From an uncultured Bacteroides sp. (GTDB lineage Bacteria > Bacteroidota > Bacteroidia > Bacteroidales > Bacteroidaceae): a stretch of 64,000 bases of DNA. A program made the position numbers and the translations under genes. This document shows, in pieces, positions 6,798-57,020 of the stretch (position 1 is its first letter; each line of letters begins with the position of its first letter). The notes beneath the pieces are model-generated. The model was not told the DNA's origin. It saw nothing but the letters and a program-made list of their open reading frames with translations, and did not search any database. The DNA lies in contig CAMTPH010000003.1 of assembly GCA_947074345.1 (NCBI GenBank), forward strand, positions 1 through 64,000, given 5' to 3'.

Positions 6798-7817
6798 ATG
6801 AAACAAGAAACCATTCGTATTTGTGATTTAAGTATTGGATATCGCCCAAAGAACAGTGTTCGTATGGTGGCTAGTGGTGTTAATGCTTCTTTGCATAGCG
6901 GAGAGTTGACTTGTTTGTTGGGTGCCAATGGAGTTGGAAAGTCTACCTTATTGCGTACATTATCAGGTTTTCAACCTAAGTTAAATGGCGAAATCTTCAT
7001 TAACAATAAAGAGATCGGACTATACAAAGAAAAAGAGTTGTCGAGTGTGATTAGTGTAGTGCTTACTGACAAGTGCGATATCTACAATATGACTGCAATC
7101 GATTTGATTGGTTTAGGACGAAGTCCATATACAGGTTTCTGGGGATCGTTAAGCAACCATGATAAGAATGAAATTGATAAAGCTATCCGCCTGGTTAAAA
7201 TAGAAGATTTAGCTCATCGCATGATTCATACTTTGAGTGATGGTGAACGTCAAAAAGTGATGATAGCTAAAGCGCTTGCCCAAGACACAGCTATTATTTA
7301 CCTTGATGAACCAACTGCTTTTTTAGATTTTCCAAGTAAAGTCGAGATGATGCAATTGCTTCATCGATTGAGTCGTGAAACCAATAAAACGATCTTTCTT
7401 TCTACCCATGATTTAGAATTAGCACTTCAAATTGCAGATAAGGTATGGATTATGGATAAAAAAGAGGGAGTAACTATTGGTGCACCAGAAGATTTAGCTC
7501 TAAACGGCTTTCTAGAGCGCTTTTTCGCATCTGATGGTCTTGTTTTTGATTATGCTACGGGTTTATTTAAGGTCTATAATAGATGCCATTCGCAAATAAA
7601 ATTGATTGGGAAAGGTTCAAAATACGATATGATGCGTAAGGCTCTTTTAAGAAATGGAATTATGGCACATAGTGATATAAATTCCATCTCTTTAATAGAT
7701 GCCGGACAAGATAAATCAGATGATTCGTTTATCCTTAAGTTCAATTCGGATTCTCCTTTCGAGGTATGCGGAATAGAAAATGTATTAAACTACATCAAGA
7801 ATAATACATATAATTGA
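6798..7817 (+). CDS. ABC transporter ATP-binding protein, FecE/BtuD-like, with C-terminal extension
   Basis: Walker A GANGVGKST, signature LSDGERQKV, Walker B IIYLDEP, switch H THD; about 85 aa extra C-terminal region. Confidence 0.88.
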   Translation: MKQETIRICDLSIGYRPKNSVRMVASGVNASLHSGELTCLLGANGVGKSTLLRTLSGFQPKLNGEIFINNKEIGLYKEKELSSVISVVLTDKCDIYNMTAIDLIGLGRSPYTGFWGSLSNHDKNEIDKAIRLVKIEDLAHRMIHTLSDGERQKVMIAKALAQDTAIIYLDEPTAFLDFPSKVEMMQLLHRLSRETNKTIFLSTHDLELALQIADKVWIMDKKEGVTIGAPEDLALNGFLERFFASDGLVFDYATGLFKVYNRCHSQIKLIGKGSKYDMMRKALLRNGIMAHSDINSISLIDAGQDKSDDSFILKFNSDSPFEVCGIENVLNYIKNNTYN

Positions 7818-14136: not shown

Positions 14137-14664
14137 TTATTTAGGCTGAGCTGCTCTTAAAATGAAGGTAGTAGCACCAATGGTTATAATCGCGCCATCT
14201 TCAATACGCATACGGTCTTTGTCGCCTAGAATATCATTCAATAAGAAAGTTCCTGTAAGGCTAGGAGCATCGCGCAAAGTGTAAATCACTTCACCTTGTT
14301 TGTTGCGTTTTACATTGATGATGCAGTGGCGTCTATCCATGCTCATATCACCTGTTTCGATAGGCATATCTACTACAGATCCTACACAACGACGACCAAT
14401 CACATTGTCTCCCTCTTTGAAAGGAATGATTTGTTTAAAGCCAAACACATTTTCGATAACACTTATGCTTCCCAACTCGTCGCGGAATGCTTCATCATCT
14501 AGCTTCTCGTTCTTTTGAAGCTCTTTCATTTTACTCTTACCAATTCGAATGCTGAATTGTTTTCCGCATTCATCACATTCAAATACAAGTGATTGACCTT
14601 CACTGTACTTGGTTTCATCAAAAGATAGGTATTTCTCGCACTTGGGGCAACGAACACGTTTCAT
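14137..14664 (-). CDS. Zinc-ribbon plus FHA domain protein
   Basis: N-terminal CPKCEKYL...CDECGKQF zinc ribbon; FHA-like NVIGRRCVGSVVDMPIETGDMSMDRRHCII. Confidence 0.82.
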   Translation of the reverse strand: MKRVRCPKCEKYLSFDETKYSEGQSLVFECDECGKQFSIRIGKSKMKELQKNEKLDDEAFRDELGSISVIENVFGFKQIIPFKEGDNVIGRRCVGSVVDMPIETGDMSMDRRHCIINVKRNKQGEVIYTLRDAPSLTGTFLLNDILGDKDRMRIEDGAIITIGATTFILRAAQPK

Positions 14665-14702: not shown

Positions 14703-15809
14703 TTATTGTACCAAAAGCCAAGCATCTTTAAAAGAATCTTGTGTTCTGATTTTCGCAAGATGATTGTTTGCTTCATCTCGAGTAGGAAGAGACATGATAC
14801 TAACGCGGATTCTTTCTCCACCGTTAATAACACGAGCACCGGTATATCCTTCAGCCTTTAATTTACTCACTAGTGTTTCGGCATTTTTCATGCCAATGCT
14901 AGATGATACAATTAAATGGTATTTGCCTGAAGTGATTTTTGTTTCAACTTTTGCAGGTTTAGCAACCTCTTTTTCTACCACCGGTTTTGTTGTTTCTTTA
15001 ATAGTAGCAGGAGTAATAGGAGTAGCAGCAACAATCGTTTTTGTTTCAGCAGGCTTAGTAGCAACCTTAATCTCTTTGGTCGCAATTGGTTTAGTGTTTT
15101 GCGAAGTGGTACTTGCCTTGCTTTTAGCTACTTTATTATTGGTGCTAATTTGGTTGGTTAAGATAGATTTAGACTCGATTGTCTCAAAAATATCTACCGG
15201 CAATAAATTAGCATAACTACCTTTTACTACATAAGTGTTCTCTATCGGCGAAGAGAATAAGAAGAACATGATAACTGCTGCAACAGATGCAACAGCTGTA
15301 CGAACAAATGCACGGTTAATGCGAATGTCGTATGTTTTCTTATTAGTATGTGGTATGATAGGTTGAATAGGTTTTTCCTCTATCGGCATCAATTCTGATA
15401 ACTCTTTCAACTCAAACGCGTGCAAGCCGTAATAAGCTGGCGTAATAAATTTGTTGTTGTAAGGAGTAAACTCGTAGGTTTGATGAATAGAGTAGTGGAG
15501 TTCGCCAATATGTGGCAGTTCAACCTTTCCGTTTTTCTGTAGAAGCTCTACCATTTCTTTGACTTCGTGATCGATTATTCTCGAAGCGTCAACAAAGTCA
15601 GTGTCGTGGCTAGCCATATACGATTGAATCAATAATCCATCATTCATTTTAAGCTGAGGATTAAAGCCTATAGTGCGAGTAGGAGGAAGAAAGCTGTTTT
15701 CTTCTATCTGTGCGCGATTATTGAATGCAACAAACCCACCAAAATCGGGAATGATAACGCAATCATTTTCTAATAATAATCTTTCTATATGCTGTGACAA
15801 TTCAATCAT
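14703..15809 (-). CDS. HU/CCDC81-like N-terminal domain, TM segment, C-terminal SPOR domain protein
   Basis: N-term IERLLLENDCVIIPDFGGFVAFNNRA typical of Bacteroidetes HU-CCDC81 proteins; single TM; Lys/Thr/Ala-rich linker; C-term YHLIVSSSIGMKNAETLVSKLKAEGYTGARVINGGERIRVSI SPOR-like. Confidence 0.78.
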   Translation of the reverse strand: MIELSQHIERLLLENDCVIIPDFGGFVAFNNRAQIEENSFLPPTRTIGFNPQLKMNDGLLIQSYMASHDTDFVDASRIIDHEVKEMVELLQKNGKVELPHIGELHYSIHQTYEFTPYNNKFITPAYYGLHAFELKELSELMPIEEKPIQPIIPHTNKKTYDIRINRAFVRTAVASVAAVIMFFLFSSPIENTYVVKGSYANLLPVDIFETIESKSILTNQISTNNKVAKSKASTTSQNTKPIATKEIKVATKPAETKTIVAATPITPATIKETTKPVVEKEVAKPAKVETKITSGKYHLIVSSSIGMKNAETLVSKLKAEGYTGARVINGGERIRVSIMSLPTRDEANNHLAKIRTQDSFKDAWLLVQ

Positions 15810-15968: not shown

Positions 15969-16032
15969 GATAACTGTTAACAGTTATCGCGATGGTTGTA
16001 TATATTTAGCACGATAATAGTTAACAGTTATC
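15969..16032. repeat. 64-bp twin-palindrome dispersed repeat, copy 1
   Basis: GATAACTGTTAACAGTTATC (15969-15988, perfect 20-bp palindrome), 24-nt spacer with TGTATATA, GATAATAGTTAACAGTTATC (16013-16032). Confidence 0.85.
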
Positions 16033-37427: not shown

Positions 37428-38315
37428 ATGGCTTCACTTAAAGAGATAAAATCGAGAATTGGTTCGGTGCAAAGTACATTAAAAATTACTTCTGCCATGA
37501 AGATGGTAGCATCTGCCAAACTACATAAAGCACAAGATGCCATTGTCAACATGTTGCCTTATCAGGAGCAGTTAGACAAAATATTACGTAATTTTCTAAG
37601 TGGTGACTTGCCTATCGATTCTCCTTACGTGCAATATAGACCAGTTAAGAAGGTGGCTATTGTATTATTCTCTTCAAACAGTTCTTTGTGTGGTGCTTTT
37701 AACTCTAACGTAGTGAAAGATTTTCTCCATATGATAGGCGAATATCGTAAACTGGGGCAAGAGAATATTTATATATATCCTGTTGGCAAGAAAATAGAAG
37801 AGGCTGTTATCAAAATGGGATTTACTCCCAAAGGCACTTTTCAACACTTATCAGAAAAGCCCAATTATAGCGAGGCGTCTGTTTTGGCTCAGCAGCTCAT
37901 GAAGCTTTTCGAGAATAAAGAGATTGATAGGGTAGAGTTGGTCTTTCATCATTTCAAATCTGTTGCTTCTCAAACATTGGTTAGAGAACTGTATTTGCCA
38001 ATTGATTTATTGCAAATAGAAGAAGAGGAACATGCCAAAGAGATAGAAGATAATGTTCTTGTGAAAGATTATATTGTTGAACCATCGTTAGAGGAGTTAA
38101 TAGCAGATTTGTTACCTCAGGTATTGGCAAATAAGATGTTTACTACAAGTGTAGATTCATCGGCTTCTGAACATGCCGCACGTATGATTGCCATGCAGTC
38201 GGCAACAGATAATGCCAATGATTTATTGCAAACACTTACACAACAATACAACAAAGGTAGACAACAAGCTATTACTAATGAGCTACTCGATATAATAGGT
38301 GGCTCTATGCGTTGA
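37428..38315 (+). CDS. atpG: F0F1 ATP synthase subunit gamma
   Basis: MASLKEIKSRIGSVQSTLKITSAMKMVASAKL; C-term NKGRQQAITNELLDIIGGS. Confidence 0.96.
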   Translation: MASLKEIKSRIGSVQSTLKITSAMKMVASAKLHKAQDAIVNMLPYQEQLDKILRNFLSGDLPIDSPYVQYRPVKKVAIVLFSSNSSLCGAFNSNVVKDFLHMIGEYRKLGQENIYIYPVGKKIEEAVIKMGFTPKGTFQHLSEKPNYSEASVLAQQLMKLFENKEIDRVELVFHHFKSVASQTLVRELYLPIDLLQIEEEEHAKEIEDNVLVKDYIVEPSLEELIADLLPQVLANKMFTTSVDSSASEHAARMIAMQSATDNANDLLQTLTQQYNKGRQQAITNELLDIIGGSMR

Positions 38316-38324
38316 TAAACAATG

Positions 38325-38364
38325 CAAATAGCGCGATAACTGTTAACTGTTATCGCGCTATTTG
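38325..38364 (+). terminator. Long hairpin downstream of atpG, coinciding with repeat copy 2
   Basis: CAAATAGCGCGATAAC-tgttaact-GTTATCGCGCTATTTG, perfect 16-bp stem 10 nt after the atpG stop; no strong T tract. Confidence 0.5.
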
Positions 38365-38398
38365 TATATATATAACACGATAATAGTTAACAGTTATC
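38335..38398. repeat. 64-bp twin-palindrome dispersed repeat, copy 2
   Basis: GATAACTGTTAACTGTTATC (38335-38354), 24-nt spacer gcgctattTGTATATAtataacac, GATAATAGTTAACAGTTATC (38379-38398). Confidence 0.85.
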
Positions 38399-54947: not shown

Positions 54948-55736
54948 ATGGGCACCATAGATATATCATACTTGCATTTAGCCATAGGGCTATTATTATT
55001 AGTCATTCCTATTTACTACTTATGGAAATATAAAACCGGTTTGGTCAATGCAACCATAATAGGAACATCGCGAATGATTGTTCAGTTATTTCTTATTGGT
55101 ATATATTTGAAGTACTTATTTTTATGGGATAATCCATGGGTTAACATACTATGGGTTGTGATAATGGTATTTGTTGCCGGTCAAACAGCTATTGCTCGCA
55201 CCGGATTAAAACGTAGTATACTGCTTATTCCTTTTAGTGTAGGATTCTTGTTTAGTGCAATTGTTGTGGGACTCTACTTTATAGGTGTGGTGTTGCGACT
55301 CGACAATATATTTAGCGCACAATACTTTATTCCGATATTTGGTATTTTGATGGGTAATATGCTTTCTAGCAATGTCATTGCTCTCAATACTTACTATAGC
55401 GGACTGAAAAGAGAAGAACAAATGTATCGCTATCTTTTAGGCAATGGAGCGACATCGCAAGAAGCACAAGCCCCATTTATAAAGCAAGCGCTCGTAAAAG
55501 CTTTTAGCCCACTTATAGCAAATATATCGGTTATGGGGTTAGTGGCTCTCCCTGGCACTATGATTGGTCAGATACTTGGAGGTAGTAGCCCAAACGTAGC
55601 TATCAAATATCAAATGATGATTATGGTTATCACCTTTACTGCTTCAATGATATCGCTAATTATTACTATCAAGCTAGCTTCTCGCAAATCATTTGATGCA
55701 TACGGCAAGTTACTTCCTATAAGTCGTATCAACTAG
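54948..55736 (+). CDS. fetB: ABC transporter permease FetB/YbbM (UPF0014)
   Basis: RMIVQLFLIGIYLKYLF, GNMLSSNVIALNTYYSGLKREEQ, LGNGATSQEAQAPFIKQAL, VMGLVALPGTMIGQILGGSSP. Confidence 0.93.
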   Translation: MGTIDISYLHLAIGLLLLVIPIYYLWKYKTGLVNATIIGTSRMIVQLFLIGIYLKYLFLWDNPWVNILWVVIMVFVAGQTAIARTGLKRSILLIPFSVGFLFSAIVVGLYFIGVVLRLDNIFSAQYFIPIFGILMGNMLSSNVIALNTYYSGLKREEQMYRYLLGNGATSQEAQAPFIKQALVKAFSPLIANISVMGLVALPGTMIGQILGGSSPNVAIKYQMMIMVITFTASMISLIITIKLASRKSFDAYGKLLPISRIN

Positions 55737-55750
55737 CCTATATCGTATTT

Positions 55751-55814
55751 GATAACTGTTAACTATTATCAGATTAAATGTATATAAACAATATGATAAC
55801 TGTTAACTATTAAC
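55751..55814. repeat. 64-bp twin-palindrome dispersed repeat, copy 3
   Basis: GATAACTGTTAACTATTATC (55751-55770), 24-nt spacer agattaaaTGTATATAaacaatat, GATAACTGTTAACTATTAAC (55795-55814). Confidence 0.82.
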
Positions 55815-55910: not shown

Positions 55911-57020
55911 TTAATTGGTTTGGGTAGGAATAATTACTCCATCAATATTTACAATCTGCCAATTTTTAACTTGAACACTATTAGTTGCATTAAAGGTTAT
56001 CGTATCTACACTGAGCGTAGTATTGTAGGTGTAAGAATAACCTGCTTGATATCCGCCATCTCCACTTGTTGATGTTCCCCCTTTGTATGGAGGGATTTTC
56101 AATGAATAAACTCTAGGTGAACTTTCATTATTAATAGTTACACTAAATGTACACGTCATACTATCAGTTATTTGAGCCAAAGGCATCATAGTGATTTGTC
56201 CGTTATATGCATTAGTGGCCGAAGAGTTTGTTGATGTACCATCACCAACTGACATTGTAGTTGTAGAAGTTAATTCATCAGCTGGTGTAATAATACCTGT
56301 AGTTAAATTCCAAGAAATACCGTTAGTTGAAGATGGTGTTATACCGAAAAGTGGAGTTGGACTACTATTTATAGTAACACCGCTTTCAGCAGTTAGGTTG
56401 ACAATTATTTGGGTACAACAATGTGTCATCTTAAAATCGATTTCGTTTGAGGTAGCGTTAGGTGTATAACTTAATTTATCGCCCCAGATATAATCCATTT
56501 TATTTTGTAGAGAAGAGGCAGTAGCCGATCCACTACTAAAAGTAAATGAAGGAACAGCTGTACCAGCCGGCACATTTACACCTGCTGCATAGAAATCGTA
56601 TACACCAGAGGCAAGAACCATTTGATCGTCGTCTGATGGCGATAATGTTCCAGAAGTGATCGATTTATATTCCTTTGCTTGAACAACGGAATTTGTATTA
56701 TTAAATGCGCTAATATCTACGATACGGCCAGTACCAATATCAACATAGGTACCATCAGTGCCTGTAGTGACAGCAAATCCGCCCTGTGTTGCTGATGTTA
56801 ATACACCAGCCCGGAAATATAACTTGTAACTACTACTAGTTCCGGTGCTATCACTGCTATTGCTATTATCATCCGAACCTCCACCGCTATTGGTGTTGTC
56901 ATTGTCGGTTGGATTGATTAGATTGGAAAGGTTGATATTTATATCATCCTTAGAACAACTTATTGTGCATATAGTGATTAGTGATAATAACCCTATTGCT
57001 ATTAAATACATTTTTTTCAT
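55911..57020 (-). CDS. Fimbrillin/Mfa-like lipoprotein, paralog 6 (Ser/Asn/Gly/Asp linker)
   Basis: Lipobox ITICTISC; linker NPTDNDNTNSGGGSDDNSNSSDSTGTSSS; family motifs SGTLSP, GVYDFYAAG, MDYIWG, HCCTQIIV, C-terminal YSYTYN...VKNWQIVNIDG. Confidence 0.8.
   Translation of the reverse strand: MKKMYLIAIGLLSLITICTISCSKDDININLSNLINPTDNDNTNSGGGSDDNSNSSDSTGTSSSYKLYFRAGVLTSATQGGFAVTTGTDGTYVDIGTGRIVDISAFNNTNSVVQAKEYKSITSGTLSPSDDDQMVLASGVYDFYAAGVNVPAGTAVPSFTFSSGSATASSLQNKMDYIWGDKLSYTPNATSNEIDFKMTHCCTQIIVNLTAESGVTINSSPTPLFGITPSSTNGISWNLTTGIITPADELTSTTTMSVGDGTSTNSSATNAYNGQITMMPLAQITDSMTCTFSVTINNESSPRVYSLKIPPYKGGTSTSGDGGYQAGYSYTYNTTLSVDTITFNATNSVQVKNWQIVNIDGVIIPTQTN

Follow-up and report, generated by a model that had tools for sequence, protein, structure and literature searches.

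Several families of short dispersed palindromes have been described in bacterial genomes. REP, BIME and REPIN elements, which are associated with the RAYT (TnpA-REP) transposase, are short palindromes of high copy number and species-specific sequence that occupy extragenic positions, often near the 3' ends of genes, and form mosaic arrays (PMC2817692, PMC3116915, PMC3733652). The CGTC REPs, found in several phyla including Bacteroidetes, are palindromic repeats without a dedicated transposase, built as tagged stem-loops with stems of 8-9 bp and loops of 4-5 bp (PMC3733652). The BrickBuilt MITE of Porphyromonas gingivalis is an intergenic element of 22-23-nt tandem units with a leader, a tail and IS5-like terminal repeats, and 22-nt tandem repeats have been noted in P. 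gingivalis W83, their locations not being given (PMC4596501). Finally, chromosomes and plasmids carry partition and macrodomain sites (parS, matS, ParR iterons), at which an oligomeric protein binds dyads that are dispersed or arrayed. The half-site of parS is TGTTTCAC, to which the GTTTCA half-site described below bears a resemblance that may serve as a lead.

The intergenic arrays reported here have features in common with each of these systems and differ from all of them. Unlike REP and BIME elements, the family first noticed is AT-rich, with neither a GT(A/G)G head nor a GC-rich palindrome and with no RAYT in the genome, and the arrays as a class have a strict 22-bp pitch, halves that do not covary, and several half-site families on one geometry. 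There is no CGTC tag in this family, and it is the fixed 22-bp pitch that characterizes the array. BrickBuilt belongs to the same phylum, and Porphyromonas uenonis carries one of the array families (GTTTCA), but the arrays lack ends of the BrickBuilt kind and target duplications. They differ from parS in half-site spacing and in that the cognate protein is putative, and from partition and macrodomain sites generally in the presence of several array families per genome and the replacement of their sequence between species. The literature searched, which included few subscription papers, contained no account of 22-bp dyad arrays in Bacteroides.

Structure of the 64-bp element

The source genome (G000; 3.1 Mb in 183 contigs, 84% complete) has Bacteroides as its closest relatives. 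The window, which is the whole stretch of 64,000 nucleotides that was analysed (C3:1-64000), contains three copies of a 64-bp element, exactly at the coordinates first assigned to them. Copy 1 (15969..16032) lies between divergent genes, the nearest ORFs being 159 bp away on one side and 194 bp on the other. It consists of outer dyad 1 (15969..15988, GATAACTGTTAACAGTTATC, a perfect palindrome), a weak middle dyad (15991..16010, GATGGTTGTATATATTTAGC) and outer dyad 3 (16013..16032, GATAATAGTTAACAGTTATC) at a pitch of 22 bp. On one side of copy 1 are genes encoding an HU-CCDC81/SPOR protein (14703-15809) and an FHA-domain protein (14137-14664), and on the other side begins a polysaccharide export cluster (Poly_export, Wzz-like). 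Copy 2 (38335..38398; middle weak dyad 38357..38376, GCTATTTGTATATATATAAC) follows the ATP synthase gamma gene (ORF 37428-38315) at a distance of 19 bp. Copy 3 (55751..55814; middle weak dyad 55773..55792, ATTAAATGTATATAAACAAT), which has one mismatch in its last palindrome, lies between convergent genes, a UPF0014 gene ending at 55736 and a fimbrillin-like gene on the minus strand ending at 55911, and is adjoined by a separate terminator. The six 20-mers are the sole matches at ≤3 mismatches in the window (shuffled sequences: mean 0.07, maximum 1). All three features are unstranded: the whole element is dyad-symmetric, and therefore the common orientation that had been ascribed to the copies carries little information.

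The original prediction was of two 20-bp palindromes set 44 bp apart around a diverged filler. The 44-bp geometry is invariant in many copies, but the true period is 22 bp and the spacer is not filler: its 24 nt hold a further dyad of 20 bp, degenerate (about GYTRAATGTATATAYTTARC) and bordered by 2 bp on either side, so that the element is a row of three 20-bp dyads joined by 2-bp linkers. The family has the AT-rich consensus GATAAYWGTTAACWRTTATC, in which inverted half-sites of about 10 bp (GATAA[CT/TA/CA]GTT) recur every 11 bp, giving two strong dyads, both near-perfect GATAA[CT/TA/CA]GTTAAC palindromes, around a weaker one centred on TGTATATA. The half-words CTG, TAG and CAG mix freely, the left and right inner words being independent of each other (p = 0.46, 52 copies). 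The core is TGTATATA in 13 and TATATACA in 10 of the 52 listed copies. Within the middle dyad of these copies T24, T28, the central TATA, A35 and A39 are conserved and their neighbours are variable; this dyad resembles the outer half-site (GNTAANTGTW) with its T/A contacts kept, and two of its position pairs are complementary less often than expected (11 versus 19.0 and 10 versus 20.3). The search pattern that gathered the 52 copies consisted of the outer palindromes, and the conservation of the outer dyads is in part a product of that choice; a looser search of 444 kb of the genome nevertheless gave 15 copies of which 14 have ≤1 mismatch over both palindromes. Weak extra half-sites flank the 64 bp, with no other flanking sequence shared among 19 copies, and in two array families a weak inverted half-site with TATA closes the outer flanks. 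Recent duplication had been doubted from the start, and the divergence of the spacers (≤22/24 identical in any of the 52 copies) and the lack of target-site duplications agree with that view.

Abundance in the genome and in relatives

A genome-wide search for the twin-palindrome pattern, which had been proposed as a check on the element, yielded 59 strict pairs on the forward strand, and in every pair listed the spacer was exactly 24 nt; variable spacing was not seen in searches that allowed spacers of 20-28 nt and then of 16-40 nt. The reversed pattern gave no pairs in the same genome, and single 20-mers at ≤3 mismatches numbered 196 genome-wide versus 4 in the control. The strict pair is absent from 119 relatives and from a scan of GTDB r220, which possibly left out the source genome itself. 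A viral origin was considered and rejected: the IMG/VR collection contains no GTTTCA arrays and a single isolated GATAAC palindrome, GATAACTGTTAACCGTTATC at positions 1935-1954 of IMGVR_UViG_3300031998_000184 (L032), with no partner 44 bp away. What the reversed pattern matched in other genomes were 7-bp tandem repeats (CAATTGT type), a distinct phenomenon. Such repeats (TCAATTG, TCAATGG or TCAATCG type; loci L041 onwards) are very abundant in G013, G038, G047 and G066, with up to 204 matches per genome, and their pitch is unrelated to that of the 22-bp arrays.

Array families that share the 22-bp pitch

The original observation stands and understates the extent of what is present, for the window's element represents just one of several families in a wider class of intergenic arrays with a 22-bp pitch, which had not been recognized. 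A sequence-blind search of the source genome for three phased palindromes peaks at a period of 22 (27 hits versus 0-7 elsewhere, and 10 at the 33-bp harmonic). A peak at the same period is found in G068 (12) and G194 (6), where the arrays differ in sequence from the window's family, and none in G195. At least four further half-site families with this pitch occur in Bacteroides. GTTTCA-N6-TGAAAC is present in 25 of 160 Bacteroides genomes, has 24 pattern matches in the source genome, where its arrays are usually of four units, and occurs in named species of Bacteroides, Phocaeicola, Parabacteroides, Porphyromonas, Prevotella, Segatella and Chryseobacterium as well as in one bin labelled Treponema. 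TTCTCA-N6-TGAGAA (31/160 genomes) and TTGCCA-N6-TGGCAA (32/160 genomes, with 25 matches in the source genome) came to light at a handful of loci during the blind search and were then found across the genus, with 0 or 1 in the control for each. By our own count from these searches, one or more of the three N6 families is present in 58 of the 160 genomes. In G068 the GGTAG family (GGTAGATAGG/GCTGGCAAGG, GGTAGATAGGCCTATCTACC-like) forms 33 arrays within 1.09 Mb and has 97 pattern matches in the genome as a whole. Some arrays of G068 (e.g. L107:2591 and L104:7286) place TGTTNACA-type units directly beside GTTTCA units in one 22-bp register. In a Bacteroidales bin (Md513_bin13, L198, about 7229-7622), a GTTTCA-type array extends to 18 units, compared with the usual 3-7.

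Turnover and conservation of position

Arrays change by whole units and by family. At one locus compared among four Bacteroides genomes, the flanks align and the units of the array differ in number and content; there, B. xylanisolvens XB1A and G021 differ cleanly by one unit. L191 and L208 differ by two units. Three sites with orthologous neighbours in the source genome and G068 are occupied by arrays that belong to different families in the two (GATAAC versus GTTTCA once, GTTTCA versus GGTAG twice), and G194 retains GTTTCA at one of these sites. Arrays at shared 3' ends of these two genomes are in excess (p = 0.027, from counts that are not independent), and those at shared 5' ends are not. 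In G194 and G068 nothing corresponding to copy 2 follows atpG, and a match of position in Phocaeicola oris is biased because the locus was chosen for its array. These comparisons suggest a weak conservation of array position.

Proposed function of the arrays

We consider it about an even chance (probability roughly 0.5) that these elements are helically phased arrays of double-stranded half-sites for a putative oligomeric DNA-binding protein, probably with an architectural role. Protein binding, the service of all array families by one protein family and the architectural role are inferred; what the genomes show is the geometry and copy number of the elements, their position between genes and away from promoters, half-sites that vary independently, a single pitch common to several families, and gain or loss of whole units. 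In such a system the protein, with its dimers side by side along the helix, would bind the three dyads cooperatively, each 22 bp, or about two helical turns, from the next; the slight excess of 22 bp over two turns of B-DNA (21 bp) counts against this reading. Of the readings first offered, a site for protein binding fits the data best, but as an array in which three sites follow one another every 22 bp, not as a pair separated by four turns. Located between genes and mostly near their 3' ends, the sites may have a role in organizing or insulating the chromosome and not in promoter control. From one species to another the words of the half-sites are replaced and the geometry is constant, as if related proteins had kept the geometry of the oligomer while their recognition drifted.

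A broader proposal is more tentative, namely that Bacteroidota possess a superfamily of intergenic arrays of invariant 22-bp pitch, read by putative oligomeric proteins, in which sequence preference has been replaced between species (at least five families) while the geometry and some positions have been kept. If so, a much-studied gut genus carries a widespread and fast-changing system of chromosomal sites that is absent from the literature searched. Such a system would offer a handle on chromosome organization in Bacteroidota, and a natural experiment in which a DNA-binding protein and dozens of its sites change sequence together under a fixed geometry.

Mobile elements as an alternative

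The main rival explanation, which we regard as possible and clearly second to a protein-binding array, is that of a selfish or domesticated repeat of the REP/BIME or MITE type, spread by some other mobilizer and tolerated away from promoters, with a pitch that reflects duplication and recombination within arrays. Amplification is specific to a lineage (dozens of copies versus none in the 119 relatives), the placement is like that of extragenic repeats, for which avoidance of promoters and a 3' bias are equally expected, and both the whole-unit differences (XB1A versus G021, and the two units between L191 and L208) and the weak inverted half-site with TATA at the outer flanks of two families are compatible with a selfish repeat. 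Against it, several unrelated sequence families would each have had to reach the same pitch, the spacers are diverged, and the viral collection lacks the arrays. A RAYT/REP-type transposase, which had been suggested as something to look for, did not materialize: no Y1/RAYT-type protein (PF01797) was found in G000 (84% complete), G068, G194, G139, or the complete single contigs of G148 and G134. The domain is present in 36 of the 160 Bacteroides genomes, and array-bearing genomes with a match include G044, G155, G012, G197, G047 and G205. Neither the transposase search nor the covariation test described below supports a REP/RAYT reading, and a RAYT-driven REP was rejected, PF01797 being missing from the source genome and from most of the array-rich genomes checked. 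The GT(A/G)G head does not occur in 19 flanks of the window's family. In the same number of copies no target-site duplication was detected, the result being below the shuffled expectation, and a MITE was rejected on this basis; an end may lie at the outer TATA. No empty site was seen around fba-rpmE2, where the proteins are 98% identical and the intervening gap does not align.

Hairpins and recombination sites as alternatives

Were the units hairpins, substitutions in one half would tend to be accompanied by complementary ones in the other half. Among 319 unique GTTTCA units there is no covariation within units beyond chance (156 versus 155.1 expected for pair 1-20), and at pair 5-16 the mismatches T-G (25) and C-A (23) are equally common, C-G being found twice; the linker of this family is AA or TT, which is not self-complementary. 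Compensatory change within units is likewise absent from TTCTCA (76 units) and TTGCCA (69 units), and GGTAG units favour unlike halves (z = -4.1 and -3.3), with mixed neighbouring units in the same direction 28 times versus 4. The central two bases tend weakly to self-complementarity in some families. Because the halves do not covary and GGTAG prefers unlike halves, selection most probably acts on half-sites lined up along double-stranded DNA. Compensation between the halves of a repeat provides a simple discriminator between hairpin repeats and arrays bound as double strands.

The suggestion of an RNA element, or more generally of an RNA or single-stranded DNA hairpin in 3' UTRs that serves termination or mRNA stability, is strongly disfavoured by the lack of compensatory change in the four families tested. 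The palindromic units, the bias towards 3' ends and convergent gaps, and the use of a similar word by a hairpin terminator after atpG in G068 would accord with it, but G-T mismatches are no commoner than A-C, unlike halves are preferred, there is no T-run, and copy 3 is adjoined by a terminator of its own. Compared with Rfam, the window and four further stretches of the genome gave tRNAs and nothing else above threshold, and an RNA hairpin was rejected as a candidate. The terminator-like hairpin of G068 (ATCAACTGTTCATTATCGAACAGTTGATTTTTG, L073) has the same kind of half-word as the array units there, a possible sign of exchange between the two kinds of element. A crude scan for terminator replacement, which missed one known terminator, found a terminator at 7/25 versus 31/71 ends (p = 0.23).

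Sites for a site-specific recombinase, with short inverted arms around a variable core and arrays that change by whole units, are similarly improbable. The GTTTCA-N6-TGAAAC layout has such a core, whole-unit indels occur, and the GGTAG family combines unlike arms with codirectional adjacent units (28 to 4); in the window's own family, though, the core is conserved, the 2-bp gaps between neighbours would leave no room for separate synaptic complexes, and homologous recombination between repeats accounts equally well for the indels.

Placement relative to genes

The predicted intergenic and 3' bias was borne out in the source genome, to which the following figures apply, the samples from G068 and G194 being too small for a firm repeat. 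All 23 elements sampled from two families in 444 kb are intergenic, as are all 15 sampled copies of the window's family. In a sample of 16, a single element falls within the 60 bp that precede a start codon, where 33% would be expected. Stop codons are closer than expected, at a median of 51 bp versus 98 bp, and 7 of the 23 elements occupy convergent gaps (13% expected). This placement speaks against promoter operators and fits an architectural role and a tolerated repeat alike. No regulator was convincingly recurrent beside the arrays. Operators are commonly built of three dyads in a row of which the middle one is weaker, and the element matches this plan, but ordinary operators of a transcription regulator for the flanking genes are the least probable of the explanations considered, since the region before start codons is avoided, 3' ends and convergent gaps are favoured, and the genes flanking the copies are unrelated, encoding ATP synthase gamma, DUF308, UPF0014, fimbrillin-like, HU-CCDC81/SPOR and polysaccharide export proteins.
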